Assembly (NCBI GenBank): GCA_022600955.1
Contig: JAHZJK010000011.1
Span: forward strand, 62,001 to 126,000
Length of the DNA stretch: 64,000 bases
From: Gammaproteobacteria bacterium
GTDB taxonomy: Bacteria > Pseudomonadota > Gammaproteobacteria > Steroidobacterales > Woeseiaceae
Reading direction: 5' to 3'
In this document: one piece after another, positions 5,881-25,871 of the stretch
How the letters are laid out: each line of letters opens with the position of its first letter
Numbering within the stretch: position 1 is the first letter of the stretch
Translations under genes and position numbers: made by a program
Notes under the pieces: model-generated
What the model saw: the letters and a program-made list of their open reading frames with translations, nothing else
What the model was told of the DNA's origin: nothing
Database searches by the model: none

Positions 5881-5945
5881 CTTTTCGAGTCCGGCTACTA
5901 CTAGATCGCGGTGGTTTGTAGTGTTACTTTAACGCTCCGAAACGT

Positions 5946-6431
5946 ATGACTCACCGGACAAGCTCTATGACCGAATCAAGCGCTGACGCTGAACGAAAAG
6001 CGTTGGAATCCTGGTACAAGCCTTTGCTCGATAACGTGGTGAAGGAGATGATCAGAATTAAGGCAATATCAGGGGAGGCTGTGCAAGCTACGCCTGTCTG
6101 GATGGTGCCCGATGACATCCTTATGGCGAAAGTCTGGGGCGTAAATCGTGAAAATGATTTCGTCTGGACGATTTCTGTCGATAAGCTGATTGCAGATTAC
6201 GTCGCAGGTTCGTTGGCGGCCACACCAAGGGATGTAGCCAGACACTTTTCACTGAAGTGGCAAATGGATGCCGAGCGCTTGCTCAGTCTGAGCAAGGACA
6301 GACCTGCCGTTGAGAATATCGACCCGAAAGTGCGGCAACATTCGGAGCAGCTTGTTCGTTATGCAGAAACGCTCTATGACCTCGCCGGTCAGGACGACGC
6401 TTGGGAGCAACTGCCGACGTTTGCCAGTTGA
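5946..6431 (+). CDS. DUF4826-like cytosolic protein
   Basis: This 161-residue soluble protein has no signal peptide or membrane helix. The segments ARHFSLKWQMDAERL (about residues 99-113) and YDLAGQDDAWEQ near the C-terminus resemble, from memory, the conserved part of the DUF4826 family of small gammaproteobacterial proteins of unknown function. The family call was not checked by a search. An alternative ATG at 5967 would remove seven residues; neither has a strong ribosome binding site. It follows the efflux adaptor by 65 bases on the same strand and is convergent with the oxygenase that ends at 6439. No function is proposed. Confidence 0.7.
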   Translation: MTHRTSSMTESSADAERKALESWYKPLLDNVVKEMIRIKAISGEAVQATPVWMVPDDILMAKVWGVNRENDFVWTISVDKLIADYVAGSLAATPRDVARHFSLKWQMDAERLLSLSKDRPAVENIDPKVRQHSEQLVRYAETLYDLAGQDDAWEQLPTFAS

Positions 6432-6438
6432 ATCTCTG

Positions 6439-7155
6439 TCAACGGTGCAGCCAGCCCAGGTAACTGGTGCGATTGCGGCCGGCAAAAGGTGAAACCAGCT
6501 GAACTGAGTGCATCTGCGGCACCAGGAATATATTTAGCGAATTGAACGTGGGGACGAACGCTTCCTCGATATTGTCGGCATCATCGAAGAACGCCAGGTG
6601 CCCTCCCCAGTTCTTATCCCAATTGTCGGTCATACTAAATACATAGGCAGCAACCCTGTCATGGCTATCGTGTCGGTCGTCATGGGCAGTCAGGAAATGA
6701 CCAGGTGCGTAGTTTGAAGCGTAACTGTCGGCCTTGCGAATGGCCCTTTCCCCTGTCAGGGTCCTCATCAGGTTCAGCACTTCTTCACTATTCATAAACT
6801 CATGGATCTGATGCATTGGATGCCCGGGCTGTTCTTTTAGATCGATCGCCTGGCTGATGTAATACTGATAGAACACATATTGAAATTGGCTGCGAGCCCT
6901 TGCGTAGATGCTGTTCATGAGTTGTTGCTGCTGCTGAGGACCAGCGGCCTGTATCTGCTGGACGGAGCTTTCAAAGTAGTTGTTTCCGTCATTGTAGGCC
7001 AGGTACCAGTCCTTGTTCTCGACGTGAATTCTGTGCAGGTAGTCGGCCGTCTCCGCTGTAAAAAACTTCGCGACCTGCAATCGACCCTGCTGCTGCAAAA
7101 TTCTACCGAGTGCCTCGGGATCAAGGTCGGGACTGATTTCTAGTTGTTGGGTCAT
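6439..7155 (-). CDS. 2OG-Fe(II) oxygenase, prolyl-4-hydroxylase-like
   Basis: A 238-residue non-heme iron oxygenase. Visible ligands are His158 and Asp160 in FLTAHDDRHD, a distal His216 in VPQMHSVQLV, and Arg227 or Arg229 for the 2-oxoglutarate carboxylate in FAGRNRTSYLGW. The core strands from residue 145 on match the double-stranded beta-helix of the P4H-like group that hydroxylates protein or peptide side chains. The N-terminal 140 residues are mainly helical and glutamine-rich around 66-79. It is the first of three such oxygenases within 8 kb, interleaved with sulfotransferases. It diverges from the methyltransferase gene at 7297. The substrate is unknown; a role on a peptide or protein substrate is inference from the family. 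Confidence 0.85.
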   Translation of the reverse strand: MTQQLEISPDLDPEALGRILQQQGRLQVAKFFTAETADYLHRIHVENKDWYLAYNDGNNYFESSVQQIQAAGPQQQQQLMNSIYARARSQFQYVFYQYYISQAIDLKEQPGHPMHQIHEFMNSEEVLNLMRTLTGERAIRKADSYASNYAPGHFLTAHDDRHDSHDRVAAYVFSMTDNWDKNWGGHLAFFDDADNIEEAFVPTFNSLNIFLVPQMHSVQLVSPFAGRNRTSYLGWLHR

Positions 7156-7233
7156 CGCGTTTGACTAGTTCCTGACATTTTGGCGTGGGTGACAATGGGC
7201 TGAACGTCTGATGCAGCGAAAATAACACGCTGC

Positions 7234-7264
7234 TTGCCAGGTTGTCAGGCGCAATTGTTATACT
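7234..7264 (+). promoter_or_regulatory. Candidate promoter of the methyltransferase gene
   Basis: TTGCCA at 7234-7239 and TATACT at 7259-7264 are separated by 19 bases, slightly longer than ideal. Transcription would start near 7271, which argues against the in-frame TTG at 7234 being the translation start and fits the start at 7297. Confidence 0.4.
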
Positions 7265-7296
7265 TTGCGGTCCCGCCCGAAAGGGGGTTACGAAAG

Positions 7297-8277
7297 TTGG
7301 CAATAGAAATGAATGAAGAGTCGGCAAAAGTAGCGGTTGCAGACAGTTGGAATACGTATTGGCAGAGCCCACATGCGAACGCCGCGTACACCAGCAATGG
7401 TGCCGGTCACCCGAGCGTGCTGGCCTTCTGGAACGACTATTTTCGTGAAGTTCACACGCGTGAGGACAGTCCTCGTATCATTGATATAGCGAGCGGCAAC
7501 GGTGCTGTTGTCGATTGCGCCAAGACTGTTTTTGCTGAGAATTTGCCGGACTTTACGTGTCTCGACGTATCCAGCGCTGCGATCGACCTTCTGAAGTCCA
7601 GACTTCCCGGCGTTAACGGTGTCATAGCGGATGCGAAGACGATTCCGCTCGACTCGGGTATGTTCGACCTCGCAACGAGTCAGTTTGGTTTGGAGTACGC
7701 TGGCCTCGACGCGCTCGATGAGGTGATCCGCATACTTTCTGACAAAGGCGAACTTGTCTTGCTGCTGCACCATCGCGGTGGATCAATCTATGCGCACTGT
7801 CACGAGGGCCTTGAGGCGATTCGCGAAGTCCGGGCGTCGCAGTTTATTTCGCACTCCATAGCCACGTTTGACGCTGGCTTTGCAAGCCTCAAGGGTGATG
7901 ATCACAGCGACTATTCTGCTGCCGGAAATAAACTCGCGCCTGCAATCACGGCAATGGGTGCGATTATAGATAAGTACGGCGTCAACGTCGTTGACGGTCT
8001 GGTTGTCGCGCTGTACCGCGACGTGCGGACGATTCTTTCACGCATGAGTCACTATCACCCCGATGATGTCAGCGATTGGTTACACAAGATGCAGGAGGAA
8101 GTCGAAGCCTATGAGGGCCGTATGGCTTCGATGTGTGAAGCGGCAATTGACAGTGAGGCATTCGCGGCTCTGCGCCAGTCTATCTCGGACAAATCCCTCG
8201 AGATCGTAAAGAGTGAGGCACTTGAGGTTCCCGGAGAGCAATCGCCAATCGCTTGGGTACTGGTTGCCCGAAAGTAA
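7297..8277 (+). CDS. Class I SAM-dependent methyltransferase
   Basis: A 326-residue protein with the Methyltransf_11-type Rossmann fold. Motif I is IDIASGNGAV near residue 58, followed by an acidic residue in FTCLDVS and a motif II/III region with PLDSGMFDLATSQFG. A C-terminal helical extension of about 150 residues may form a substrate cap. The TTG start at 7297 has AAGGGGG nine bases upstream; an ATG at 7309 is the alternative. A longer frame back to 7234 would run through the putative promoter. It diverges from the 2OG oxygenase gene and its 3' end faces the sulfotransferase that ends at 8338. The methyl acceptor is unknown. Confidence 0.85.
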   Translation: MAIEMNEESAKVAVADSWNTYWQSPHANAAYTSNGAGHPSVLAFWNDYFREVHTREDSPRIIDIASGNGAVVDCAKTVFAENLPDFTCLDVSSAAIDLLKSRLPGVNGVIADAKTIPLDSGMFDLATSQFGLEYAGLDALDEVIRILSDKGELVLLLHHRGGSIYAHCHEGLEAIREVRASQFISHSIATFDAGFASLKGDDHSDYSAAGNKLAPAITAMGAIIDKYGVNVVDGLVVALYRDVRTILSRMSHYHPDDVSDWLHKMQEEVEAYEGRMASMCEAAIDSEAFAALRQSISDKSLEIVKSEALEVPGEQSPIAWVLVARK

Positions 8278-8337
8278 TTGCAGGTTAAGCCGATTGTCGG
8301 TGCTCCGTAGTGAGCAAGCGAGCCTGGAGAAACGGTC

Positions 8338-9864
8338 TTAAACCGTTTGTAACTCATCCAGCATAGCCCCAAGATACGGCTGGTAGCTTTGCCACAGGTT
8401 CACCGAACTGGTGTACATGGGTTGCCGAACCTGAAACGCACTTGCGGTTTTGACAACAGCTCTGGTCGTATCAAAATCGATGCATGCTTTTTCGAAATCA
8501 AGATCGCAAGTCGCCAGAAGTTTTCTAATTTCGCTTTCCGCATTTTGCGTCAAAGCTTCATAGTGAATGTCGTAAATTGTATCTGGAATGGTCTCGTGCC
8601 AATGCTTCATAAGCGCTGAGTATTCATTGTGAAATTGCGCCACAGTCTTCAGGTCATAGGCAAACCGATAGTTGCCGGTCGTGAAGTTTTGCTTGTAAAT
8701 TGACAAACAGGTATCTCTTGCATCCCTGACACAATGAATGATCTTTGCATTGGGTAATGCGATTTTGATAATTCCAATCATCATCATATTGAACGGCATT
8801 TTGTCAGTTACACGGGCTGCACTTTTGTTCAACAGCCCGATTTGCTCCAGATAGGTTTTTCCAACAGTCTCGAAAGTTCCTTGCGGGTAAGATTCCAGGG
8901 GCAAGTATTCGTAATGTCTTGTCTCGCCCAGAAACAGCTTCGTGCCTAGGGCGAACATGTAATCAAGCTCCCCTGCGCCATGAACCTCAGAATGGCTGGC
9001 GAGAATTTTTTCAACCAGAGATGTTCCGGAGCGAGGCATACCGACGATAAATATCGGTTGATTTGAACTCACAGAGTTGACCTGCAAATCCGCTATCGCG
9101 CGTGCGTTAAAGTTGCGAATGATGCTCTGGATTAGCGATCGGTCACTCTCAATACTGTAATTGAACTCCGCAGACCTGCGATCATTGCCGGCCTTGAGAA
9201 ACTCAAATGCACGCTGATAATCTTCGAAATCTTCACAAGCCTTGCCCAGCGCGAATGCGAGGTGAATTCGACTTTCATCACTTAGCCCGGGATGCTGATA
9301 CAAATCCAGCATCGAGTTGAAATGCGGGTCTGAACTGTTTTCGTATTTGTGGATACCGGAATAGGTAAAATGCGCCTGGGTATAATCGGGTTGTTGGGCA
9401 ATGACCTGCTTATAGTATTCCGACGCCTCTTCGAGTTTTCCCTGTGATTTCAATATATTAGCCAGCAAGTACTTCGCGATATGGAAGTACTGATGCTCGG
9501 CGATAATGCCTCGATAGGTATTACTGGCCCGTCGAATGTCACCTGCCAACTGATAGCTGTCAGCAAGGTTCATTCTCGCTTCGAGAAAACCGGGATCGAT
9601 CGCCAGCGTGTTCTTCCAAAGTACATCCGCTTCGTCGCGCCTGCCAGTCCGGGCGCATATCAGGGCCAGCTTACAATTCAGGTCCGGGCTCCTGACTTTT
9701 TCAGCGAGCAGGGCGCGATAGCCGGCTTCGGCAACAGCCAGCTGCCCTGTCGAATGTGCGTGCACGGCCTGCTGCAGCCTGGCGGTCTGTTTGTCTGAAA
9801 TGCGATGCCCTGACGCTGCCTTTTTCTGACGCTTCTTTGCCGGGTTTCGTCGTTTATTGGCCAT
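8338..9864 (-). CDS. TPR-domain sulfotransferase
   Basis: A 508-residue fusion. The N-terminus is very basic (residues 1-20), TPR-like helical repeats fill roughly 30-165, and a PAPS-dependent sulfotransferase domain follows from about 268. The 5'-phosphosulfate loop is VGMPRSGTSLVEKIL (about 274-288) and the 3'-phosphate site includes CVRDARDTCLSIY (about 378-390). The catalytic-region helix and the C-terminal VRQPMYTSSVNLW segment match the bacterial relatives of tyrosylprotein sulfotransferase. It lies 32 bases downstream of a second TPR-sulfotransferase, so the two are probably cotranscribed. No signal peptide is visible, so the enzyme is probably cytosolic. The acceptor is unknown; a peptide or protein acceptor is inferred from the fold and the TPRs. 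Confidence 0.9.
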   Translation of the reverse strand: MANKRRNPAKKRQKKAASGHRISDKQTARLQQAVHAHSTGQLAVAEAGYRALLAEKVRSPDLNCKLALICARTGRRDEADVLWKNTLAIDPGFLEARMNLADSYQLAGDIRRASNTYRGIIAEHQYFHIAKYLLANILKSQGKLEEASEYYKQVIAQQPDYTQAHFTYSGIHKYENSSDPHFNSMLDLYQHPGLSDESRIHLAFALGKACEDFEDYQRAFEFLKAGNDRRSAEFNYSIESDRSLIQSIIRNFNARAIADLQVNSVSSNQPIFIVGMPRSGTSLVEKILASHSEVHGAGELDYMFALGTKLFLGETRHYEYLPLESYPQGTFETVGKTYLEQIGLLNKSAARVTDKMPFNMMMIGIIKIALPNAKIIHCVRDARDTCLSIYKQNFTTGNYRFAYDLKTVAQFHNEYSALMKHWHETIPDTIYDIHYEALTQNAESEIRKLLATCDLDFEKACIDFDTTRAVVKTASAFQVRQPMYTSSVNLWQSYQPYLGAMLDELQTV

Positions 9865-9896
9865 CGCTGTTCACTCTTCGCCCGGTGCCAGGCACG

Positions 9897-11876
9897 CTAG
9901 CTTGCGGTGGGAAGGTCGCTCGATTCTACAATTCGCTTTAGCGGCCCCAGAAAAGACTCGTAATTTTTCCAATGCTCCAGCGCATTACTGTAAAGCGGCT
10001 GCCGGACTTGTTCCGAGCTGGGCGTTGCGACCGCTCGCTTGTTCAAATGAAAGTCCAGGCAAGCATCTTCAAATTTCAGCCCACAGTATCGCAGTACTTC
10101 CTCAACAACCTGAGGAAACTTGTCGACGAGTTCCTCATACTGAACGGTCAGAATCTGCCTTGGTAGCACTGCATGCCAATGATTCATCAGGTCCAGGTAG
10201 TCGTTGTAATACCTGCCAATCGTTTCGAGTTTGTACGAGAATTGGAAACTGTCAGCGAAGAACTGACGGTACTGACTCCAGCCACTTGCCATGGGATTGC
10301 GCCTGATATCGATGATTTTCGCATTCGGGAAAAGCGTTTTGATCAAGCCGATATGTTGAAAATTCTGTGGTGCCTTATCAATGAAATACGGCGCCTGCTT
10401 TCTGTAGGGCCTGGCGTACTCAAGATAGCGCTGCGCCATATCCTGCATCACTCCGGAGCCCAGGTTTTCGATTGAGCGAGGATATTGCTCTTGTTCAGGC
10501 TGGCCCTGACCGTTCAGTGTCCGGACGATCGAAGCGATTTCGTCAAGTTCCTGGGTTGCATCAACCAGGCTATGGCTCGACAGAATTTGCTCAATAAGCG
10601 TGGAACCACTCCGCGGCAGACCAACGACAAATATAGGCGCATCGGCTTCATCGCCGTGTTGATTCCGGGCGGAAAAATACTCCATTGTAAAAAACGACTT
10701 GAGCAAGTCATTCTGGCTGGAATAATGCAGATGCCGAATATCGGCATAACTGCTGTTCGCCGAATCATAGTGCTGAAAACTGCGTTCGAACTCACCCGCA
10801 TCTTCAAACGCTTTTCCTAGCGCGAACTCGACCAACACTTTGTTCAGCGGCGAAAGTTGTTCGTTGCCGAGCAGTGCCCGCATTGCCTCGATTTCGTCAG
10901 CAGAAAACTTGTACGTCTTCAGGTCTGCCAGTTCCCAATAGGCCTGCGCCAGGGTTGCCTCAGATTCAATCGCACGCTGATAGCAGCGCGTAGCTTCTCT
11001 GGTGTCACCGACAGTCTTCAGCACCTTGCCCAAGTGCAACAAGCTCAATGCGCGTTTCGCTGGTACCTCGGTCAACTCGCGATATATCTCGATCGCGTCA
11101 TCGAATTGACTCAGGTTGAACAACAATTCGGCTTTAAGTTCGTATACCTCCAGGACTTCTGGGGCTAGTTCGATCAGCTGCTGACACTGCTCTAACGCCT
11201 CTTGATGCTGTCTGTTCGCGAGCAGAGAATAGGCGTAATCAAGACGCAGGGCCGCATCAGCGGGTCGTGCGTCGATGCAATCAAGCAGCGTAGTCGTGCT
11301 GAATTCAGGATGGCCGAATCGCCTCGCTATTTTCGCCAAGAGCCTAAGTGTATGAACTTCGGTCGGCACCAGTTCCAGTAATTGGCGGCACATCGCGTCT
11401 GCTGTCTGGAAATCACCCGTAGCAAACTTCTGCTCTGCAGCATTCAGTTTCTCGTAAAATGTACGAATCATCTCGTACTGTTTCGATGCGTCTTTACTGG
11501 CGTCAGCTTGCCCGTCCTGCCGCAAACAATCGCTCAGCAGACGCCAACTCTCGATGACTTCAGGCCTTGCGCTTGTCACTTCAGCCAGCAGCTTTATTGC
11601 CTCTCGCGGTTCGTCAGCTCTCATTCGGAGTTTGGCCAATTCGATTTTCGCCGGCATATTGTCTGCATCGTGTTCAAGCAAGGATCGCAGTACGCTGGTT
11701 GCTCCGTCAAAGTCGTCGCGTAGCACATGGCAGCGTGCCAGCAAGAATAATGCGGGCGCCCTGAGAAGGTCGCCTTCGAGAAAGTCGCTCAATGCTTTCT
11801 GCACTTCTAATGCATCGCCCGGCAGCATTGTCTCAAGCTCTTTGAGAGTCTTTTTCCTGTTGTACGCTTCAAGCAT
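9897..11876 (-). CDS. Large TPR-domain sulfotransferase
   Basis: A 659-residue protein with a longer TPR array (about residues 30-320, at least eight repeat-like helix pairs) and a C-terminal sulfotransferase domain. The PAPS loop is VGLPRSGSTLIEQIL (about 418-432) and the 3'-phosphate segment is IRRNPMASGWSQYRQFF. The C-terminal VRQPLYSNALEHW segment is shared with the neighbouring sulfotransferases at 8338 and 19817, so these are paralogues. No good ribosome binding site precedes the ATG at 11876, so the start is less certain. Ninety bases separate it from the upstream oxygenase gene. As with its paralogues, the acceptor is not evident. Confidence 0.9.
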   Translation of the reverse strand: MLEAYNRKKTLKELETMLPGDALEVQKALSDFLEGDLLRAPALFLLARCHVLRDDFDGATSVLRSLLEHDADNMPAKIELAKLRMRADEPREAIKLLAEVTSARPEVIESWRLLSDCLRQDGQADASKDASKQYEMIRTFYEKLNAAEQKFATGDFQTADAMCRQLLELVPTEVHTLRLLAKIARRFGHPEFSTTTLLDCIDARPADAALRLDYAYSLLANRQHQEALEQCQQLIELAPEVLEVYELKAELLFNLSQFDDAIEIYRELTEVPAKRALSLLHLGKVLKTVGDTREATRCYQRAIESEATLAQAYWELADLKTYKFSADEIEAMRALLGNEQLSPLNKVLVEFALGKAFEDAGEFERSFQHYDSANSSYADIRHLHYSSQNDLLKSFFTMEYFSARNQHGDEADAPIFVVGLPRSGSTLIEQILSSHSLVDATQELDEIASIVRTLNGQGQPEQEQYPRSIENLGSGVMQDMAQRYLEYARPYRKQAPYFIDKAPQNFQHIGLIKTLFPNAKIIDIRRNPMASGWSQYRQFFADSFQFSYKLETIGRYYNDYLDLMNHWHAVLPRQILTVQYEELVDKFPQVVEEVLRYCGLKFEDACLDFHLNKRAVATPSSEQVRQPLYSNALEHWKNYESFLGPLKRIVESSDLPTAS

Positions 11877-11966
11877 GTTGGTTTTGGTTCTATCGAGTCA
11901 ATCGGACAATTGTACGTGTGCGGCTGCCAATAGACCAACCGGGAGTCTTCGGGGTTTTATCCTCGC

Positions 11967-12560
11967 CTAGCGAGAATTCGACTGAAGTGCATCTGGCTGA
12001 ATAAAGTCAATCCACCCCGTGAATATCATCTTTTCATGCGTTTCGGAGACGACGCCCCGATGCAAATGAGTCATATCACTCGGCCAGATTATCAAGTCGC
12101 CCTTTACGCATTCGGTGGTCAGCTCCTGGTGCGGGAATTCCGTTCCCCCATTGGGCGTATCGGTCAGATATACCATCCAGACGAGCGCACGATGGGCGTA
12201 CTGAATACTATCTCGCTCGCAATGTATCGCGGGGTAGCCACCGCCTGCCGGATATTTTTGAAGGCTCGAAAACTTTGAATACCCGACAGGGCCCATTCCT
12301 GTCGCACCCGCACCAATATAGTATTTTTCAATGTATTCGCCGACATGCGTTTTTAGCAATTCGAAAAACGGTTCGAAGCTCCCGTACAGCTCGATGGGAA
12401 CACACAGGTCCATCGAATCCTTCATGCTTTTGTCGATCCTCGGGTTTTCACCCAGCCTGCCAGGCTGTGCAAGGTGCACATTTTTGTCGTAGAGCCCGAT
12501 TATCTTGTCACAGAGTTCGGTATCAATTTTGTAGATTTCAATAAATGTCTTGAGACTCAT
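11967..12560 (-). CDS. 2OG-Fe(II) oxygenase with an HxE metal motif
   Basis: A 197-residue oxygenase of the prolyl-hydroxylase-like group. The first metal pair reads His113-Cys-Glu115 (AIHCERDS) rather than the usual HxD. The distal histidine is His165 or His167 in DMTHLHRGVV, and Lys177 in SETHEKMIFTGW may hold the co-substrate. The signature TPNGGTEFPHQ between the metal sites is typical of P4H-like enzymes. The ATG at 12560 has the strong ribosome binding site AGGTGG and a candidate TATAAT box 25 bases upstream. It lies between sulfotransferase genes on the same strand, which suggests joint action on one substrate. Confidence 0.85.
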   Translation of the reverse strand: MSLKTFIEIYKIDTELCDKIIGLYDKNVHLAQPGRLGENPRIDKSMKDSMDLCVPIELYGSFEPFFELLKTHVGEYIEKYYIGAGATGMGPVGYSKFSSLQKYPAGGGYPAIHCERDSIQYAHRALVWMVYLTDTPNGGTEFPHQELTTECVKGDLIIWPSDMTHLHRGVVSETHEKMIFTGWIDFIQPDALQSNSR

Positions 12561-12585
12561 ATACCACCTTTTCGACGCACGAAAA

Positions 12586-12591
12586 ATTATA
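12586..12591 (-). promoter_or_regulatory. Candidate -10 box upstream of the HxE oxygenase gene
   Basis: On the minus strand the bases read TATAAT, 25 bases before the ATG at 12560, leaving a short leader that contains AGGTGG. No convincing -35 hexamer is present at the usual spacing, so an activator may be needed. Confidence 0.35.
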
Positions 12592-12631
12592 CACCATGGT
12601 CAACGAGCCGATATTCGAGTCGGCTGCAGCA

Positions 12632-13684
12632 CTAGCCAAATTGACGCATGCTGGTACTAACAAGTTCGCACTGATTGGCGAGCTCGTCGAGCCACATCAG
12701 AGCCGCCTTAATCTCCGCTCCGAATGTCGACCGCGATTGGGCCAGAATCGCGGCGCGGGTCTGAGCATTGTATTGAACCTCAGGAGCTTTCGAATAGGTC
12801 TGCATCACTGAACTCTGTACAGCACTTTCGATAACGCTTTCTGAGGCGGGTATCTTGAGAAAGTCCAATACCCGCGCGAGGGAATCAGCCGGAGTGGCAA
12901 TCAGGGTTTCAAATTCCAATGCCTCGATTTGTCCGGGGAACGCCTCAAGAGATTGAGTAGCGCTGGTTGTTTCGCTCAGCCAGCTCAACGCAGCCAACTG
13001 CCCCAGATTAAGCTCACTCAATCGAATATCGAGATCGGTTTTCTGCCGCAGGCGTTGTATTCGCAGTTTTGCAAATCCCTTCAGGTCTACAACCGCGTTT
13101 TCGCCCGCAAGCAACGTCGCAATATGGGTTTCTACGCGATTGAAGACGAATATGGATCTGGTGCTCGGCTCTGCGGATTGAAAAACGGGCAGCAAGTCGG
13201 TGCAAATACTGGTCGCCTTGATCACCGTATGGGACGCACCGCGGCTCCACAATTTTGAGAGCGTTTTCAAGTACTTCAGATGCGATTTCCGACTAACAAA
13301 TGAGCGGCCCTCGTCAGCGTCGGCAAAATCTTGTGCGAGCGACCGCAATGGCAATGGTTCACGCAGACTCTGCGTATTGCCAGCAAAACCTGCCAGGCGA
13401 GACAAAAGGGTCGAGCCACAATGGCCAACGTGAAATACAAGACTCACCGGTTTCGCTACAGGTGTCGGGTCGATGACTTCCGTAACCTCTTGCCAGGGGA
13501 TCCAGGCACCCTGTGTCGTTTCGCTCAATACTCGCTGGTCCAGAAAACTGGCGGCCTCGACTTTCGCCTTGGGCAGCTCTACGAGTAGTAGCTGGTCGTT
13601 GATAAGATCGAGTTGGTGAGGAAAAATTTCGGGTCGCTGAGCCAGCCTGTCAAGCCAGGCATTCGACATATTTGCTGTACTCAT
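12632..13684 (-). CDS. Sulfotransferase-like protein without TPRs
   Basis: About 350 residues. The P-loop-like phosphosulfate site reads FHVGHCGSTLLSRL (about residues 84-97 from this start), in the position and context of the sulfotransferase 5'-PSB. The 3'-phosphate region may be FVFNRVETHIATLL. The protein lacks the TPR array of its three neighbours and is only distantly related to them. Starts at GTG 13729 and ATG 13684 are both possible; neither has a good ribosome binding site and the ATG is used here. The family is well supported, activity less so because the loop departs from the PRSGT consensus. Confidence 0.75.
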   Translation of the reverse strand: MSTANMSNAWLDRLAQRPEIFPHQLDLINDQLLLVELPKAKVEAASFLDQRVLSETTQGAWIPWQEVTEVIDPTPVAKPVSLVFHVGHCGSTLLSRLAGFAGNTQSLREPLPLRSLAQDFADADEGRSFVSRKSHLKYLKTLSKLWSRGASHTVIKATSICTDLLPVFQSAEPSTRSIFVFNRVETHIATLLAGENAVVDLKGFAKLRIQRLRQKTDLDIRLSELNLGQLAALSWLSETTSATQSLEAFPGQIEALEFETLIATPADSLARVLDFLKIPASESVIESAVQSSVMQTYSKAPEVQYNAQTRAAILAQSRSTFGAEIKAALMWLDELANQCELVSTSMRQFG

Positions 13685-13830
13685 GCTTGGTTCATCTCTA
13701 TATACTTTCGCGAAAACATCGTCAGTCACTCATTGTACGTCAGATAAATCGGCCATGAAGAAAGACTGCGATTTCCATTGGTAGTAAACTGGAACGAGCT
13801 CTTGGACAGAATTATAGCGACGTACAAATC

Positions 13831-14496
13831 ATGATACTGGAAATCCCTGACTTTCTTGGCCGCATAGATACCCGGCGTTTACGACGAATTGCTGCGGAGG
13901 CAAACTTTGTCAATGGCCGATTGACCAATCCGCACAACGAAACGAAAGACAACCAGCAGATTGACCACACCGTACCTGGCTATCAGGAATCGAGTCAGAT
14001 CGTGATGAGCGCACTTACTCGTCATGAAGCCGTGCGCGAATTTGCAATGCCGAACAGGATAGCGCCTCCTTTGCTGTGCAAGTATGACGTCGGAATGGCC
14101 TACGGCGCTCACTTCGACGTCGCTTTGCTGCCGCTGCCAGAACTTCAATCGCTGCTGCGTTCTGACCTGTCAGCCACTCTCTTTCTGAATGACCCGGATA
14201 GTTACGACGGTGGGGAGCTGGTTCTGCAACTGGAAAGCCGAAAGGTACCGATCAAGCTGCCTGCCGGCGGTCTGGTTGTCTACCCGTCGACGATGCTGCA
14301 CGAAGTAACGGAAGTTACGCGCGGCCAACGCCTGGTTGCGATTACCTTTATTGAAAGCAAGATCATTGATGAACGCAAACGCCATATGATCTATACGCTT
14401 GGCGAAGTGTCGGCGCTGGAAGGCATGAGCATGAAACCCGAGAATCGAATGCTTCTTGATCTGGTACGACATAATCTGATTCGTATGTGGTCCTGA
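13831..14496 (+). CDS. PKHD-type 2OG-Fe(II) hydroxylase (PiuC/YbiX family)
   Basis: A 221-residue Fe(II) dioxygenase of the PKHD group. Metal ligands are His94 and Asp96 in YGAHFDVAL and His157 in STMLHEVTEV; Arg167 in RGQRLVAITF should bind 2-oxoglutarate. The length and the tail LLDLVRHNLIRMW match PiuC/YbiX proteins, which are often found next to TonB-dependent receptor genes and linked to iron acquisition. Here the nearest receptor is 7 kb away. The gene diverges from the sulfotransferase-like gene at 12632, with about 150 bases between the starts. The substrate of this family is not firmly known. Confidence 0.9.
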   Translation: MILEIPDFLGRIDTRRLRRIAAEANFVNGRLTNPHNETKDNQQIDHTVPGYQESSQIVMSALTRHEAVREFAMPNRIAPPLLCKYDVGMAYGAHFDVALLPLPELQSLLRSDLSATLFLNDPDSYDGGELVLQLESRKVPIKLPAGGLVVYPSTMLHEVTEVTRGQRLVAITFIESKIIDERKRHMIYTLGEVSALEGMSMKPENRMLLDLVRHNLIRMWS

Positions 14497-14515
14497 TCGA
14501 GGCAAAACTTCGGTT

Positions 14516-15301
14516 TTAGTCCGCGACCCCGCCATTGCCTGAAAAGTACGCGACCAGCACGTCGTCCAGCAACGGACCCCAGTTGCGCCAATCATGTCCC
14601 TCGCTCACTTCGATGAAACTGAGTTCGTATCCTTTGCTAGCCAGCAGACGCCTGAATCTCCTGACGGCTTTCGTGTTGTCGTTCTTCGTGCCTACACTCA
14701 AGAATATCTTCAGGGGCAAGGTCTCTGATTGCTCATACAGCTCACGTACAACATCGACGTGATCGCCACTCGCGGGTGACTGCATGGCGATACCGGCAAA
14801 GTACCTGGAAAGCATGAGTCCAAAGCAAGCGCTATTCAGACCACCGAACGACAACCCTAATATGACCCGATGGTCGCGTGACGAACTCACAGGCTGCTCA
14901 TTGCTGATGGTTGGAATGAGTTCGTTCGCAAAAAAGTCAGCGAAGTCCGTGTTGCACATGAACTGTTTGGTGCGGCGGTTTTCCGTCGGCCTGTCTGGGT
15001 TGCGGCTGTCCAGAAACACGACTATCACTGGATCGATTATCCCTGCACTGATTGATCGGTCCAACACGGCCTTCATCCCGCCTGGCTCCAGGTACCACTG
15101 TCCGTCTGTTACATACAGAGTAGGTAAGGATTGCTGCGCAGATATTCCGGCCGGCCGGTATACCCTGTACTGCAAATCGTAGCCCAGGATTGAGCTTGAA
15201 ATTCGCTGGTTATCACCAAGACTGCCCTCAGAGGCAACAGCAGAGCAGCCGAGAAAGAGCAAAACCTGAAGGAAAAGAGACTGCCACCTCAGGGTGTACA
15301 T
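14516..15301 (-). CDS. Exported esterase D-like alpha/beta hydrolase
   Basis: A 261-residue protein with a signal peptide (hydrophobic 8-20, then SAVASEGS) and an enterochelin-esterase/esterase D-like fold. The nucleophile elbow is GLSFGGLNS with Ser as nucleophile, and the likely catalytic His is in SEGHDWRNWG near the C-terminus. Early in the sequence LPTLYVTDGQWYL matches the strand and loop preceding the active site in this family. It ends 19 bases from the PKHD gene and faces it. The protein is probably periplasmic and hydrolyses an ester or peptide; the substrate is unknown. Confidence 0.85.
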   Translation of the reverse strand: MYTLRWQSLFLQVLLFLGCSAVASEGSLGDNQRISSSILGYDLQYRVYRPAGISAQQSLPTLYVTDGQWYLEPGGMKAVLDRSISAGIIDPVIVVFLDSRNPDRPTENRRTKQFMCNTDFADFFANELIPTISNEQPVSSSRDHRVILGLSFGGLNSACFGLMLSRYFAGIAMQSPASGDHVDVVRELYEQSETLPLKIFLSVGTKNDNTKAVRRFRRLLASKGYELSFIEVSEGHDWRNWGPLLDDVLVAYFSGNGGVAD

Positions 15302-15313
15302 CTTCGGTGCCGG

Positions 15314-15799
15314 TTATCGTACGCGTTTTACACGCGTTGACTTGCCACCTTCTGCCACAAGGAAAAATGAACTCATGATTCCCGATTTTATTCTCGCCTC
15401 AAACGGAGCTTTCAACTTCCAGCTGCTACCGTTCGTTTGCTTCCAGACCGCACCATCTTCCGTATAGAAATAATGTAGCTGTCTGCCAACTTTGTGTACT
15501 TTGACAATCGTAACCATTACTTCGTCAACCGACACCTCCGGCTCAGACGTCTTGCTTCCAAAGCTGTCTTTTTGGACTTGTTCTAAATCCTGCTGATTGA
15601 AAACACCGCCGTCGGCAACCGTGTCATAGCACAGTAGACGCGCTGATTTAGCCTCGATTTTTTGACAGCCCTGCGCGTCGGTGACATTGACTGGTTCTTC
15701 GGCCGATGCTGGCAGGAGGAGAACCTGCGACGCCAGAACACCGAGTAACAACGATCGCCTGAACATCGGCCAAAAAGGGCCTTTTTGTGATAATTTCAT
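15314..15799 (-). CDS. Small exported protein of unknown function
   Basis: A 161-residue protein starting at the ATG at 15799, which has AGGAAG nine bases upstream. A longer frame starts at 15844 but lacks a site. A signal peptide ends near LLPASAEEP. The mature part has a motif ARLLCYDTV near residue 55, similar to the ARLxCYD motif of several exported gammaproteobacterial proteins, and a basic C-terminus ending TRVKRVR. It lies 12 bases upstream of the esterase gene on the same strand and diverges from the first DUF547 gene. I do not recognise a family with a known function. Confidence 0.7.
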   Translation of the reverse strand: MKLSQKGPFWPMFRRSLLLGVLASQVLLLPASAEEPVNVTDAQGCQKIEAKSARLLCYDTVADGGVFNQQDLEQVQKDSFGSKTSEPEVSVDEVMVTIVKVHKVGRQLHYFYTEDGAVWKQTNGSSWKLKAPFEARIKSGIMSSFFLVAEGGKSTRVKRVR

Positions 15800-15967
15800 A
15801 GTGAATTTTCTTCCTGGTTCATTGTCTAATTTTGCGTCGAACAATCACCTCTAGTCAACAAGTATAAACAGCCGGAAATAGGCATCAGACGTGGTTGAAA
15901 TCGACCAAAACTCCACATGATTTAAGATTAGATTCTGTGTTGTAATTGTGATTACTGTAAGGGAGTA

Positions 15968-17188
15968 ATGATAGTGAAATACATTGGATTGGCGACTCTG
16001 ATCGCTTGCGGTTTGCTGGGAACTTATCACACGGCGCATGGCGCTTTGTCAGAAGTACCTGAACAATTTCAGGGATATGATGACGAATCGGAATTTGTCA
16101 TCGATTACGGTGATCTCACAGCCCTGCTGAAAACGGTGGTAGTGGATGTGGGGCGATCAACTCGTCGCGTTGCAGCTCCCGGTGCGGATGTAACCGGTAC
16201 CCGAATGAAGACAAAGGTCAAGATGACCGCCAATGAAGGCAATCGCTTCTATTTCAAAACGTTCAAGAATGAAGAGGCAAGCCAGGAATTTCTGCGCGAG
16301 ATTCAGGCCAGCCTGGAACAGTTGCCGTCCGAAGCGCCACTTAAACACTTTTCACGTGACGAGCAGTTAGCCTATTGGCTGAACTTGTACAACGTGACGG
16401 TTCTGAATGAAGTTGTCGCGATATACCCGAAGAAGAATCTCAAGAAGATTTCTCGTGGCAAGAAGTCTATTTTCGAACAGAAATTGCTCAATGTTGCTGG
16501 TGTACCGCTAAGTTTGAACGATATTCAGTACACTATTCTGACTCAAAACTATGACGGCAACCCGCTGATAATGTATGGCTTGTATCAGGGCATCATTGGC
16601 GGCCCGAACATTCGCAAGACTGCTTATGTCGGTAGTGACGTCTATCGGGCTCTGACAGACAATGCGCGCGAATTCGTCAACTCCAACCGCGGCACATATG
16701 CAAAATATGAAGGTGAATTCCGGGCGTCAAGCTTCTATGACCGGAATAAGGTCTACTTTCCAAACTTTACTGCGGATCTGACGCAACATCTTTCGACGTA
16801 TCTCCAGGGCAGCATGCTGACCAAACTTGAGACAGCCACCAAGATCAAGGCGAACATTGACGACTGGTCTGTGAACGACCTGGGAGGAAGCCAACGGAGA
16901 ATCGGTGGAAGCCTTGCGACAAGCAGAGCCGCATTGCTGGACTCTGTTAAGGGAACGACGCCAGCGGACGGAGGCGGTGTCATGGGAGCTGCCGTCGGCG
17001 CTGGCTCCAGTTCCATGGCAGCCAAAGGCCAGCGCATTAGTCGCATCGACCCTGGTTTACTCGCGATTCTTCATGAGATCAATGACAAGCGTCTGGCAGA
17101 AAACCAGCGCAATGCCAGCGTCTCAATTGAAGAGCTTGAGGACGATGACGTCAAGACTGACTCTGCAACCAGTTCGGAAGAACAATAA
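15968..17188 (+). CDS. Exported DUF547 protein, copy 1
   Basis: A 406-residue protein with a signal peptide (residues 1-26, ending AHGA) and a DUF547 domain at about 60-290. The domain signature is DEQLAYWLNLYNVTVLNE (about residue 133), followed by PLSLNDIQYTIL and YGLYQGIIGGPNIR. The C-terminal 100 residues are glycine/alanine-rich, then acidic. AAGGGAG precedes the ATG. DUF547 proteins are usually periplasmic; some show weak similarity to papain-like or transglutaminase folds, but no function is established. It is the first of three adjacent paralogues on this strand. Confidence 0.85.
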   Translation: MIVKYIGLATLIACGLLGTYHTAHGALSEVPEQFQGYDDESEFVIDYGDLTALLKTVVVDVGRSTRRVAAPGADVTGTRMKTKVKMTANEGNRFYFKTFKNEEASQEFLREIQASLEQLPSEAPLKHFSRDEQLAYWLNLYNVTVLNEVVAIYPKKNLKKISRGKKSIFEQKLLNVAGVPLSLNDIQYTILTQNYDGNPLIMYGLYQGIIGGPNIRKTAYVGSDVYRALTDNAREFVNSNRGTYAKYEGEFRASSFYDRNKVYFPNFTADLTQHLSTYLQGSMLTKLETATKIKANIDDWSVNDLGGSQRRIGGSLATSRAALLDSVKGTTPADGGGVMGAAVGAGSSSMAAKGQRISRIDPGLLAILHEINDKRLAENQRNASVSIEELEDDDVKTDSATSSEEQ

Positions 17189-17242
17189 GCCGGCTAACAA
17201 CCTGCTTGCAGCACCCACTATCGACTGGTGCCGTGATTGAAT

Positions 17243-17293
17243 CAGCCGGGACCCACTGTGCGGTCCCGGCTGGCAACCTGGTTTCGCGCCAGG
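17243..17293 (+). terminator. Double hairpin after DUF547 copy 1
   Basis: Two stem-loops follow the stop at 17188. The first pairs 17243-17253 with 17262-17272 (eleven base pairs, CAGCCGGGACC). The second pairs CCTGG at 17277-17281 with CCAGG at 17289-17293. A proper T-run is missing, so this may slow or end transcription inefficiently or stabilise the upstream mRNA. Confidence 0.5.
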
Positions 17294-17390
17294 CTTTGGT
17301 CTGAATTACTTTACTTTTCCGTAATTTAGACAATCTATTGAACTCCGCCTCGTTACCCGCCTCTAATCACTCAGGAGCGTATAGCTACTC

Positions 17391-17414
17391 ACCTGTTTAG
17401 CTCTTTAAACAGGT
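17391..17414 (+). promoter_or_regulatory. Inverted repeat in the leader of DUF547 copy 2
   Basis: ACCTGTTTA at 17391-17399 and TAAACAGGT at 17406-17414 form a perfect nine-base inverted repeat with a six-base spacer, 23 bases before the ATG at 17438 and just before its GGGGAGG ribosome binding site. It could be an operator or an mRNA hairpin that controls translation. Confidence 0.5.
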
Positions 17415-17437
17415 ATTCAGAGCGCGGGGAGGCGACG

Positions 17438-18613
17438 ATGATCAAACAGTTTGGTACCGCAATAATTATTTCTTGTGTATTGCTATTTGGCAGCAACGCT
17501 GCGATAGCCGCTGCGTCGGATGTCCCGGAACCATTTCGCGGCTTTGATGACGATTCCAAATATCGGTTCGGTTATGCAGATTTAACGGCCATGCTGGACG
17601 CTGTTGTGGCGGATGTCGGTCGCTCAAATCGGATGAAAGCCCCTCAGGTCAAGAGCCAGACCGGGACACGCATGACGGCCAAGGTCAATCGGGCAACCGT
17701 CAATGAAGGCAATCGTTTTTACTTTGAAACTTTTGAAAACGATCCGGCGAACAAACAGCGACTTGAGGCTATTCAACAAAACCTTGAGAATTCCACTAGT
17801 GAGATTCCTCTCGAGAAATTCAGCCGTGATGAGCAGCTGGCGTTCTGGCTGAATCTCTACAACGCCACGATCCTGAATGAGATCACCAAGATCTATCCGC
17901 AGCGAAATCTCAAGAAGGCGTTGTTTGGAAAAAACTCTATTCTGGATAAAAAATTGCTCACGGTCGAAGGTGTGTCGTTAAGTTTGAACGATATCCAGCA
18001 CACGATATTGAAAGAGAATTACGACCGTGACCCATTGGTCATCTACGGTCTCCATCAGGGCATTATCGGCTCACCCAATATTCGTCGAAGCGCTTACACA
18101 GGCGCGAATGTATATGCCGCACTGGAAGAGAACGCCATTTTATTTATCAACTCAAATCGCGGCACAATTAGCAGAAATTCCAAGACATTTCGTGTCTCCA
18201 GTTTTTACGAGCGCAACGAGGAGTTCTTCCCTAATTTCACGGTCGACCTGAGTTCGCATCTCCTGAAGTACCTGGACGGAGAAGAGCATGCTGCGTTGCA
18301 GGTTGCGTCCAAAATAAAGCCGGATATCAACGACTGGACGGTGACGGACCTTGGCGGGACGCGCCGCGAGATAAGCGGCAGCTTTTCAGGCAATAGTGCG
18401 GCTTTGATGGGTGCGGTCAGCGGCGCCTCATCCAGCAACTACGGCGGTGCTGCCGCGGCTACTGGCGCAGCGTCGAGCGGTGGCATTAGTTCTGCTGTAG
18501 CGAGGCAGGTGCAGGAGAAAACCGGAAAGAGTACAGAGCCCGAAGAGGAAGAAGAGGAGGCTCCGGATGATCCGGAAGCAGCTCCCCAATCCGACGATAA
18601 CCAAACCAATTAG
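17438..18613 (+). CDS. Exported DUF547 protein, copy 2
   Basis: A 391-residue paralogue of copies 1 and 3, with a signal peptide (ending near AIAAASD) and the DUF547 domain at about 55-290. Signature segments include DEQLAFWLNLYNATILNE, SLNDIQHTILKENY and YGLHQGIIGSPNIRR. The C-terminus is alanine/glycine-rich and then strongly acidic, with a run of seven glutamates broken once. The ATG has the strong site GGGGAGG. The gene stands 250 bases after copy 1 and has its own leader with an inverted repeat, so it may be expressed separately. Copy 3 starts only 18 bases downstream. The function is unknown. Confidence 0.85.
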   Translation: MIKQFGTAIIISCVLLFGSNAAIAAASDVPEPFRGFDDDSKYRFGYADLTAMLDAVVADVGRSNRMKAPQVKSQTGTRMTAKVNRATVNEGNRFYFETFENDPANKQRLEAIQQNLENSTSEIPLEKFSRDEQLAFWLNLYNATILNEITKIYPQRNLKKALFGKNSILDKKLLTVEGVSLSLNDIQHTILKENYDRDPLVIYGLHQGIIGSPNIRRSAYTGANVYAALEENAILFINSNRGTISRNSKTFRVSSFYERNEEFFPNFTVDLSSHLLKYLDGEEHAALQVASKIKPDINDWTVTDLGGTRREISGSFSGNSAALMGAVSGASSSNYGGAAAATGAASSGGISSAVARQVQEKTGKSTEPEEEEEEAPDDPEAAPQSDDNQTN

Positions 18614-18631
18614 ACGCAAGAGAATAAGCGT

Positions 18632-19804
18632 GTGCGAGTAATCATAATGAAGAACCCAGCGCCGACCGTTATTTTTGTTTGTGGAATCCTTGCACTGTCC
18701 GTAGTGAACAGTGCCGCCAAAGCAGAAGTCCCGGAGCCTTTCCAGGGCTTTGACGATAGTTCGATTTACAGCATCAATTATGATGATCTGACCAACCTGC
18801 TTGAGACGTCGGTTGTCGACAAAGGCCGATCGAAACGACAGGTAGTGAAGCCAGCGCCGAGTATTACGGGCACACGAATGAAGCCCAAGATCAAGAAAAC
18901 GGCGAATGAGGGCAACCGATTTCACTATGAAGGATTTAATGGCAATGAGGATGCGTTAGATTATCTGCTTGGCTTGCGGACCAGCATATCCAGTATTCCG
19001 GATGAGATGCCGCTCGAGAGATTCTCGCGAGATGAACAACTCGCCTACTGGTTAAATCTATACAACGTCACCGTACTGAGTGAAATCGCCGCCGTGTACC
19101 CGAGGCGAAGCCTCAAGAAGTATCATCACGGCAAACGCTCCATATTCTCCGAGAAAATACTTACTGTGTCAGGTGTGGACCTCAGTCTGGATGATATTCA
19201 ATTCACGATTTTGCGGCAGAATTACGGAAGCAACCCGCTTGTTCTCTATGGATTGTACCAGGGCATTGTAGGAGGCCCGAATATTCGTACGTCGGCGTAC
19301 ACGGGCTCAACCGTTTATGTAGCGCTTGAAGACAACGCGTATGAATTCATTAATTCGAACCGCGGCACCTATGGACACGATGATAAGACCGTACGGGTAT
19401 CGAGTTTTTATGACCGCAGTAGCCAGTATTTCCCGAAATTCAAATCCGATCTCTCCCAACACCTGTTGGGATACCTGCGTGGGGAGCTGCGAAATCGGCT
19501 GGCCACGGCCATCAATGTTCAGCCTAATATTAACGACTGGACGGTGACCGACCTGGGTGCAACTCGTCAGAACAATATTGGCGGCAGCCTTGCAAACAAC
19601 CAGGCCGCCATGCTGGACTCTTTTAAGGGCCGCAGGAAAGCTAATGGCGGAATCACATTTGCGGGCGTTATTGTAAAGCGGCCTCGTGATGAGGCGAAAG
19701 ACGACGACGATGTCACGATCGACGACCTGGGCAGAGTGCCTGGTGAGAAACAAGGTGCCAGCGTAGAAGAAATCGCTATAGAAGATGCAGAGACAGGGAA
19801 CTAG
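18632..19804 (+). CDS. Exported DUF547 protein, copy 3
   Basis: A 390-residue paralogue with signal peptide (ending near AAKAEVP) and the same domain: DEQLAYWLNLYNVTVLSE, LSLDDIQFTILRQN and YGLYQGIVGGPNIRT. The GTG at 18632 has AAGAG about nine bases upstream; an ATG at 18647 lacks such a site and would remove five residues. The C-terminal tail is acidic but unlike that of copy 2, so tails diverge faster than the domain. It follows copy 2 by 18 bases and ends 12 bases from the facing sulfotransferase gene. The function is unknown. Confidence 0.85.
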   Translation: MRVIIMKNPAPTVIFVCGILALSVVNSAAKAEVPEPFQGFDDSSIYSINYDDLTNLLETSVVDKGRSKRQVVKPAPSITGTRMKPKIKKTANEGNRFHYEGFNGNEDALDYLLGLRTSISSIPDEMPLERFSRDEQLAYWLNLYNVTVLSEIAAVYPRRSLKKYHHGKRSIFSEKILTVSGVDLSLDDIQFTILRQNYGSNPLVLYGLYQGIVGGPNIRTSAYTGSTVYVALEDNAYEFINSNRGTYGHDDKTVRVSSFYDRSSQYFPKFKSDLSQHLLGYLRGELRNRLATAINVQPNINDWTVTDLGATRQNNIGGSLANNQAAMLDSFKGRRKANGGITFAGVIVKRPRDEAKDDDDVTIDDLGRVPGEKQGASVEEIAIEDAETGN

Positions 19805-19816
19805 CGGCGTACATTT

Positions 19817-21448
19817 TCAAGTATGCAACCCGTCACCAAAGACGCCGTTAAATTGATCGTGATAGTTCTTCCAACGACCGATCGACTTGTCGTGTAGCGG
19901 TTCCCTCACTTGCCAGACACTTGCCGTTTTGACGCTGTTCTTTAACTCATGGAACAACAAACAAGCGTCGTGCCAGTCATGCCCCAGCGATTCTAGTAAA
20001 TCCGTTAGCGTGGCTCGTGGTTGAAGCACCAGGTCTTCATAGCGCACTCGGATCAAATCTGAACCCAGTAGCGATTCCCAATGATTGACCAGCTCATTTT
20101 GCTGTTCGATGTAATGGCGAATATCCCTGAGATTGGTGGAATACGATTGGTTCGGCCCCAGCCGTACTGAATAAATTGAGGTAGCAACGTCGCGCCAGTC
20201 ACGCTCGGTAACAAGAATCTTTGCCCTTGGTAAAAGAGCCTTTATCAGACCGATGTAAAGAAAGTTGTCGGGGCGTTTATCCGTAACCGCCTGCGCAAGC
20301 CCAAAGCGCTTCCTGGTCAGCTCCGAGTGTTGCCGCTGCCAGTCATGCACTGCGTTGACAGAAACGTCGTCAAGGCCACTTGGGTAGTCTGGAAACTCTC
20401 TTGCGATCAGTCGCGGAAAAAACTCACTTTCACCACCGGCAACGAAAGCTGGATGGGACGCCAGCATTTGTTCCAGCAGCGTAGACCCGCTACGAAACAT
20501 CCCACAGATGAAAACAGGTTCACCCGATACATCGCCGAATTGATTCAACCAATCGGGCGTACACTGCTTCACTATGCGACCGAAGTCGGTTTCAATCTGC
20601 GCCGGGTTGTAAGCCGGCATAGTTCGCGCATCCGTCGCATTGGCTTTCGTGAAATGCTGCCATGCCAGTTCGTAGTGGCCTAGCAGTTCGTATGCCCTCC
20701 CCAACGCATGCTGTACATCGCTGTTCTCGCTTTGGCGCGCAGTTGTTATCAGCTGCATCAGGACTGGATCATTGAGATCGGTGAACTTTTTTGTATCTGC
20801 GAGACGCGCCAGAGCGGACACGTTGGTGGGATCAGCTCGGAGACTTTCGCGGAAATTTTCGCTTGCTGCCCCCCTGTCACCCTCCTGTTCTGAGAGATTT
20901 CCTAAATTGTAGTATGCGCTCGAATAGCCCGGATTCAGATCCAGCGCTTCATTCAGGTGCTCCCTCGCTTTGTCATGCGCGTGCAGGTGTTCCATATAGA
21001 CATTGGCGATGTTGAGATGTACTTCCTCGGGCATATCGATTTTGAGCAGCAGCGCACGCTCATAGAACTCAATTGCAGCCTCAAACCGTCCACCTCTGGC
21101 AAGATTGTAGGCGTAGTTGAAAGCCGCGGTGGCGGACCCGGGATCGAATTTCAGGTAGTTCTCATAGGCGTTGTAAATGATATCCAGCGGATACCGCCTT
21201 TGACGCATGTGTCCTGCAATTTTGTCTATCGCAGCGAGATCATTCCTGGAGTGAACCAGAAGCAAATGCAACTGCTCTAGTGCATTGTCTGTCTGATGCT
21301 GGCTTTCCAGGCTCTGCACCAACATCCAGCGAGCTGGCCGATTTCCTGGCTGGCTGAGCAACAGCTGCGAGAGCAACGCAATGGCCTCGTCAAACTGAAA
21401 TCTTCTGAAGGCAGTTGTTGCCTGTTGCAAAGCGAGATTGCTCGTCAT
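19817..21448 (-). CDS. TPR-domain sulfotransferase
   Basis: A 543-residue fusion of TPR-like repeats (about residues 1-270) with a sulfotransferase domain. The PAPS loop is CGMFRSGSTLLEQML (about 315-329), the 3'-phosphate segment is TERDWRDVATSIY, and VREPLHDKSIGRW occurs near the C-terminus as in the paralogues at 8338 and 9897. A clear repeat unit, NLGNLSEQEGDRGAASENF, lies near 181-199. It stands directly after the three DUF547 genes in the opposite orientation. No signal peptide is seen. The acceptor is unknown. Confidence 0.9.
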   Translation of the reverse strand: MTSNLALQQATTAFRRFQFDEAIALLSQLLLSQPGNRPARWMLVQSLESQHQTDNALEQLHLLLVHSRNDLAAIDKIAGHMRQRRYPLDIIYNAYENYLKFDPGSATAAFNYAYNLARGGRFEAAIEFYERALLLKIDMPEEVHLNIANVYMEHLHAHDKAREHLNEALDLNPGYSSAYYNLGNLSEQEGDRGAASENFRESLRADPTNVSALARLADTKKFTDLNDPVLMQLITTARQSENSDVQHALGRAYELLGHYELAWQHFTKANATDARTMPAYNPAQIETDFGRIVKQCTPDWLNQFGDVSGEPVFICGMFRSGSTLLEQMLASHPAFVAGGESEFFPRLIAREFPDYPSGLDDVSVNAVHDWQRQHSELTRKRFGLAQAVTDKRPDNFLYIGLIKALLPRAKILVTERDWRDVATSIYSVRLGPNQSYSTNLRDIRHYIEQQNELVNHWESLLGSDLIRVRYEDLVLQPRATLTDLLESLGHDWHDACLLFHELKNSVKTASVWQVREPLHDKSIGRWKNYHDQFNGVFGDGLHT

Positions 21449-21505
21449 TTCCGCAATGAAGATCCCATGTTGAAGCCGATAAGACTACTTTTTCTATCGC
21501 CCAAA

Positions 21506-21532
21506 AGAAAGCGGGCCATTGGCCCGCTTTCT
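21506..21532 (-). terminator. Rho-independent terminator of the TonB-dependent receptor gene
   Basis: A perfect twelve-base stem (21506-21517 with 21521-21532) with a three-base loop lies 25 bases beyond the receptor stop. Read on the minus strand, the stem ends in CTTTCTTTT, giving a T-rich tail. Confidence 0.85.
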
Positions 21533-21557
21533 GGTACTGCATGTTTCTAAGAATTGC

Positions 21558-24566: not shown

Positions 24567-24976
24567 TAGTAATCCCCTAAATAATGTTTGGAATAAAGAA
24601 CTTCCATAGATTTACCCTTGAATTTTTTCCGCCCGCAAAAGCGCCACGTAGCAAAAAAGCCTCAAATAGGTTGCGGGTGATGCTATCCCACTACGGCTAA
24701 AAGCTCAACTGAATGTACCGAAATTGACACAAACATTTGCTTCTAAGAAACTTTTGCTTCAAAAACAGTGACTTACCTTGTTGTTTTTTTGTCTACTGCT
24801 AGTGCAGTGTTTTTTTTCACGTATAAATCCGGCCACTATCGAACAATCGACAAGAATCAGGCTCCAAAGGCCGACATGACGGCCGCAGCGATTGTATTTG
24901 TCTTACTTCCGTTGCAAGGTTCTGCCTCCGCAACGTGATCTGAACTAATGGCCGAAAACTGGCCGGAAACCCTGAA
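24567..24976. other. Divergent intergenic region, 410 bases
   Basis: This AT-rich gap separates the receptor gene (minus) from the asparaginase-like gene (plus) and must hold both promoters. I see no convincing ORF. A five-base stem ACTGC/GCAGT at 24795-24808 followed by eight T residues (24810-24817) looks terminator-like on the plus strand, but no gene ends nearby. TTGACA at 24724-24729 lacks a good -10 partner. Confidence 0.6.
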
Positions 24977-25858: not shown

Positions 25859-25871
25859 CCTGGAGCACTCC

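Follow-up and report, generated by a model that had tools for sequence, protein, structure and literature searches.

What is modified by a bacterial gene island in which sulfotransferases, 2OG-Fe(II) oxygenases and a methyltransferase stand side by side? The question is raised by positions 6439 to 24566 of the window, the 64,000-nucleotide stretch of gammaproteobacterial DNA analysed here. A first-pass annotation of the window had proposed that hydroxylation, sulfation and methylation act there on one shared secreted or peptide substrate, possibly the exported DUF547 proteins of the island. Sulfotransferases with TPR repeats (TPR-STs) are a common yet anonymous enzyme family, and no paper treating their function was found, as judged by titles and the beginnings of abstracts.

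Gene content of the island and its relatives

Profile matches in the window recovered every gene named by the first-pass annotation, each in the family given to it. The reverse strand carries a prolyl-hydroxylase-like 2OG-Fe(II) oxygenase (6439-7155; PF13661, 2OG_Oxy_4), TPR-ST 1 (8338-9864), TPR-ST 2 (9897-11876), a further 2OG-Fe(II) oxygenase (11967-12560; PF13640, 2OG_Oxy_3, 29.5 bits against a cut-off of 27), a TPR-less sulfotransferase-like protein with a marginal match to PF00685 (Sulfotransfer_1; 12632-13729; 22.3 bits, cut-off 22), an exported esterase (14516-15301; PF00756) and TPR-ST 3 (19817-21448). The forward strand carries a SAM methyltransferase assigned by family match (7234-8277), a PKHD-type Fe2+-dependent dioxygenase (13831-14496) and three exported DUF547 proteins, all above the cut-off of PF04784 (15968-17188, 17438-18613 and 18632-19804). 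The one DUF547 protein compared with the solitary DUF547 of this genome does not retain the Cys residues of the latter. The dioxygenase matches 2OG_Oxy_3 and scores 202.9 bits, against a cut-off of 143, with the NCBIfam model of the PKHD hydroxylase YbiX/PiuC (NF003974/PRK05467). All three TPR-STs combine TPR with Sulfotransfer_3 (E values 3e-35 to 4e-47). Two genes had been missed, both on the reverse strand: a small exported protein that is VasI-like below cut-off (15314-15844; 19.8 bits, cut-off 26.5) and a TonB-dependent receptor (TBDR; 21558-24566; PF00593/PF07715). The TBDR lies 110 bp upstream of TPR-ST 3 on the same strand and is separated from TPR-STs 1 and 2 by eight non-ST genes. 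From 6 to 22 kb the G+C content dips to 50.0-52.5%, compared with 53.6-58.6% in the remaining window (2-kb steps).

Most of this order is shared by loci L022 and L023, where RND, HlyD, DUF4826, the ST-like gene, TPR-ST 1, TPR-ST 2, the esterase, the VasI-like gene and three DUF547 genes are found; the end of L023 also shows part of TPR-ST 3. Both contigs stop before the position of the TBDR would be reached. L023 and L085 (genome G007; 17,090 bases each) are very probably one contig. A syntenic copy of the oxygenase at 11967 (75% identity) is present in L023/L085 only and absent from L022, the relatives of the TPR-less protein at 12632 are distant in both loci (20-21% identity), and neither copy has the methyltransferase at 7234 or the oxygenases at 6439 and 13831. 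L025, from another gammaproteobacterium, keeps a core in which a TPR-2OG oxygenase stands before three DUF547 genes, with an ST (47% identity) and a TBDR (58%). Since much of the order is found again in L022 and L023, and the core of three DUF547 genes, ST and TBDR in L025, the island is more than a chance grouping. The HlyD gene that neighbours it belongs with the RND pump. At the same chromosomal site (DUF885, RND, HlyD), genomes of the same genus carry other cassettes of like kind, namely TBDR, methyltransferase, ST and ST in L104 and L077, and the end of a TBDR with methyltransferase, SapC and 2OG_Oxy_5 in L258.

Neighbours of the TPR-sulfotransferases

The TBDR is a recurring partner of TPR-STs, and the window is one case of a wider pattern. 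Genes were called with a codon-model gene caller in 100 regions around TPR-STs (open frame of at least about 480 aa), taken from the listed 150 of 176 matches in 40 genomes, and 109 distinct TPR-STs of at least 450 aa were scored. Between ST and TBDR there is no intervening non-ST gene in 65 cases, one in 18, two in 4 and three or more in 4, with no TBDR in view in 18. When at least two genes are visible on each side (n = 78), the corresponding numbers are 45, 14, 4, 3 and 12. Among genes of the same loci that lie more than two genes from an ST, 15 of 214 directly adjoin a TBDR, a background that is probably high since the loci were chosen around STs. Most neighbourhoods come from draft assemblies, and the TBDR HMM was built from five receptors. 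The genome of the window itself has 34 TBDR matches and nine Sulfotransfer_3 matches, eight of them of the TPR type. A TBDR is at most one non-ST gene away from five of these eight (the window gene at 19817, two in L014, and those in L015 and L016), but not from the window pair 8338/9897 or from the gene in L017. Homologues of the window TBDR (50-58% identity) adjoin homologous STs in L099 and L025, and TPR-ST 2 shares 42% identity with the second ST in the TBDR-ST-ST set of L099.

This adjacency is clade-bound and not universal. TPR-ST matches occur in 67 of 150 Pseudomonadota genomes searched, and the best match was taken in 40 of the 67, hand-picked to span families. Of the resulting 48 TPR-STs at 40 loci, 8 are TBDR-adjacent, 31 are not and 9 lie at contig edges. 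Over the 154 labelled tips of the ST tree, adjacency switches 18 times, compared with 40-52 times in 50 shuffles. Since 31 of 48 TPR-STs are not TBDR-adjacent, the family must have other substrates too.

Within the clades concerned, trees and distances show that the pairing is durable. From 97 pairs, 81 distinct TBDRs of at least 600 aa were kept and compared with 86 others, drawn from three genomes (the best 30 matches in each). L215, among those others, adjoins an ST and was relabelled, giving sets of 82 and 85. With these sets the TBDR tree shows 12 switches of the paired state, where 50 shuffles gave 48-64. ST-ST and TBDR-TBDR distances correlate over the 81 pairs (r 0.512; maximum of 999 permutations 0.200), and when swaps were confined within genomes the maximum was 0.381 and r was reached in 0 of 999. 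Linked inheritance alone could yield such mirrored trees, which are no proof of contact between enzyme and substrate. In a very gappy TBDR alignment (3527 columns), and hence a weak test, no column splits paired from unpaired receptors. Median Tyr content is 4.6% in paired TBDRs and 3.3% in the others, and Trp and Cys are likewise higher; tests on independent pairs do not reach significance (for Tyr, median p 0.375).

Hydroxylases are the other recurring element. In the 40 genomes, 25 of 46 matches to Asp_Arg_Hydrox (PF05118) have a listed ST no more than 6 kb away, where ST density would predict 0.8, and the other 21 do not; 22 of the 30 lower-scoring matches are near a listed ST, a split chosen after the ranking was seen. 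For 2OG_Oxy_5, 8 of 36 matches are within the same distance and 28 are not (0.5 expected). Both expectations are based on start positions and on the assumption that genes are evenly spread. A compact AspH-like family forms the largest cluster of neighbours, at 20 of 100 loci (350 clusters of 551 neighbours). The 1799 called genes include two natural fusions of hydroxylase and ST, namely TPR-2OG_Oxy_5-TPR-ST (982 aa, L096) and AspH-ST (628 aa, L065), and each adjoins a TBDR. The theme of hydroxylation, sulfation and methylation thus holds, as the kit recurs across loci, and the partner that usually goes with it is the receptor. What does not carry over is the particular choice of oxygenases: outside the own genome, none of the other TPR-ST neighbourhoods compared contains a homologue of those at 6439 and 13831. 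A homologue of the one at 6439 (33% identity) does sit in L275, in a TBDR/methyltransferase/hydroxylase cluster without ST. Of five strong homologues of the window methyltransferase outside its own genome, four stand beside a TPR-ST and one (L257) does not. Weaker relatives occur with 2OG_Oxy_5, partly with TBDR and SapC, and without ST (L258, L259, L260, L264, L275).

The substrate of the island

The TPR-STs themselves point towards a protein. Their ST domain has a predicted sulfotransferase fold nearest to TPSTs, and among PDB matches it is closer to protein-tyrosine STs than to PKS-type STs. A PAPS 5' loop (RSGxT) is present together with a Glu (E340) that we take to be the catalytic residue. 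R319 and E340 are invariant across nine aligned STs and align with TPST, so that the kinship with tyrosylprotein sulfotransferase claimed at first pass is borne out. The N-terminal part is, by PDB matches, a TPR superhelix like that of OGT, a type of structure that typically binds peptides. By inspection the proteins are cytoplasmic, with no signal or anchor.

The island is tentatively interpreted as a TBDR-centred modification cassette in which the receptor is modified before export, a reading that is quite possible although short of probable. A polypeptide substrate is favoured because of the TPST-like fold, the peptide-binding type of superhelix, the hydroxylase fusions and the recurrence of the receptor amid varying neighbours, and the receptor is chosen because it is the polypeptide most often present at the loci. 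TPR-STs would be PAPS-dependent enzymes of the cytoplasm that join a protein-tyrosine-sulfotransferase catalytic domain to a superhelix binding polypeptide, each serving its cognate TBDR. The ST would most likely sulfate residues of the receptor chain before it crosses the inner membrane. At many loci, hydroxylation by the neighbouring (twice fused) 2OG-Fe(II) oxygenase may come before or together with sulfation. The mature receptor would then present sulfated loops or pore residues, by which ligand binding could be tuned. The exported DUF547 proteins, the esterase and the VasI-like protein might, as a guess, be periplasmic partners of its uptake route. A more specific relay is possible but doubtful: the oxygenase would hydroxylate the nascent TBDR, a fused or neighbouring TPST-like ST would sulfate that hydroxyl (or a tyrosine), and the methyltransferase may cap it. 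In that case bacterial receptors would carry a programmed chemistry, added after translation, that determines which ligand they take. The 12 of 78 TPR-STs with no TBDR in view speak against the receptor as target. So do the distance of TPR-STs 1 and 2 from the window TBDR, the 31 of 48 TPR-STs without TBDR adjacency in Pseudomonadota at large, the PF05118 and 2OG_Oxy_5 genes remote from a listed ST, and the alignment and residue comparisons, which yield no evidence of a modified site. If receptor modification is true, protein sulfation and hydroxylation would be added to the outer membrane.

The main rival, which we consider somewhat unlikely, is that a sulfated, hydroxylated peptide or metallophore is exported and then re-imported or sensed via the paired TBDR, as with methanobactin or RaxX. 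Methanobactin operons are described as containing a precursor peptide, commonly together with a TBDR and in some species with a sulfotransferase (PMC3621798), and RaxST is described as a bacterial tyrosylprotein sulfotransferase that modifies a small exported peptide (PMC6637879). At L122, a C39-peptidase ABC exporter adjoins the TBDR-ST pair; a C39 domain is however found in only one of 1799 called genes. Across 104 loci, the small ORFs that lie in gaps no more than 4 kb from an ST fall into 10 similarity groups of just two loci each, and the median gap is 33 bp, although the survey covers gaps only and would miss a precursor encoded elsewhere or inside a called gene. It is unlikely that the STs and hydroxylases instead act on a small molecule imported by the TBDR, as trapping, detoxification or a first catabolic step. 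TBDRs are common nutrient importers, and Rieske oxygenase, FAD oxidase and MTHFR-like proteins near some modules also fit such a route. The ST domain, nearer to protein-tyrosine STs than to PKS-type STs, and the OGT-like superhelix argue against it, as does the recurrence of ST and TBDR while the remaining neighbours vary.

The substrates proposed at first pass, the exported DUF547 proteins, are a very improbable answer. The window, L022, L023 and L025 do each have three DUF547 genes near an ST; a TBDR also adjoins these genes in the window and in L025, and in the latter they are preceded by the TPR-2OG oxygenase. The DUF547 type is nevertheless a local addition, since strong matches occur in only 2 of 40 genomes (G000 and G007, own included; weak in three more) and single copies without ST are found in L024 (11 kb examined) and L026 (21 kb examined). 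Seven loci in six assemblies have the type (L020 and L023 share one MAG name), of which L020 and L021, on contigs of just 6.3-6.4 kb, are little informative on ST presence. Own genome aside, L022, L023/L085 and L025 are the only TPR-ST neighbourhoods compared that have DUF547 at all, while the TBDR is the partner that recurs. The acidic tails are poorly conserved. The pairing with one receptor class and the hydroxylase fusions lead back to a testable proposal, that the receptors or their cargo are sulfated.

Comparison with known systems

TPST2 has an Arg two residues past the catalytic Glu with a role in substrate binding, whereas ST 3 has Glu at that place. The window TPR-STs also differ from TPST1 and TPST2 in being bacterial, cytoplasmic by inspection, provided with an N-terminal TPR superhelix and paired with TBDRs. 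OGT likewise joins a TPR superhelix to a transferase domain, but it is a glycosyltransferase and the TPR-STs are sulfotransferases. RaxST of the Xanthomonas raxX-raxSTAB cluster is described as a bacterial protein-sulfating enzyme (PMC6637879), and the window STs may resemble it in activity. The island differs in its TBDR partner and TPR domain. In the window, the gaps 17189-17437 and 24567-24976 show no obvious raxX-like precursor, and no small-ORF family occurs in at least three ST loci. A RaxB-like C39-peptidase ABC exporter is likewise absent from the 20 proteins scanned between 124 and 26762 and from 10 further window proteins.

Methanobactin operons (MbnS/MbnT) are described as combining, as the island does, genes for a sulfotransferase and a TBDR (PMC3621798). 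A difference is that MbnS is a PF00685 protein acting on a peptide. No MbnB/MbnC-like families were detected among the island genes scanned with Pfam, using what we take to be the family of MbnB. In YbiX-Fiu a 2OG oxygenase stands beside a TBDR, and we know of no sulfotransferase at this locus or at PiuC-PiuA. The 2OG oxygenase gene of PiuC-PiuA is described as adjoining the TBDR gene (PMC11878004). The window has a YbiX-type protein too, although its gene (13831) does not adjoin the TBDR. Were receptors sulfated and hydroxylated, this would also bear on the role of PiuC/YbiX and other 2OG oxygenases encoded next to TonB receptors.

Chromosomal site and neighbouring genes

The sequence on either side of the island (window 1-6431 and 24977-26762) marks a variable site when compared with loci L104, L077 and L258 from genomes of the same genus. 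The DUF885/RND/HlyD neighbourhood of these related genomes carries differing TonB-dependent receptor (TBDR) cassettes, with sulfotransferases that are diverged or absent, and in L104 an asparaginase gene is also located at this site. Past the far side of the island, window positions 27188-30368 encode a 2OG dioxygenase of the TauD family, together with a prolyl oligopeptidase. A cobalamin riboswitch (60304-60491) overlaps the start of the listed ORF for a 378-aa periplasmic binding protein-like gene.

Exported DUF547 proteins

The solitary DUF547 protein encoded elsewhere in the same genome (L018) has a Cys-containing motif that is missing from the one exported DUF547 protein compared with it (window 15968-17188). 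Because of this absence, the exported type may be non-catalytic.

Composition of TBDR modules

The TBDR modules of three loci (L258, L259 and L275) contain SapC (PF07277), a methyltransferase and a TPR-2OG oxygenase, with no sulfotransferase in view within them. A protein of approximately 310 amino acids is found near TBDR-sulfotransferase modules at 19 of the 100 sampled loci, i.e. at L014 in the window's own genome (3943-4881) and 18 others; the two members scanned had no Pfam match. Among the 1799 genes called, a C39 domain occurs once, in an ABC exporter near the TBDR-sulfotransferase pair of L122 (4316-6439). This C39-peptidase exporter is reminiscent of RaxB of the Xanthomonas raxX-raxSTAB system.
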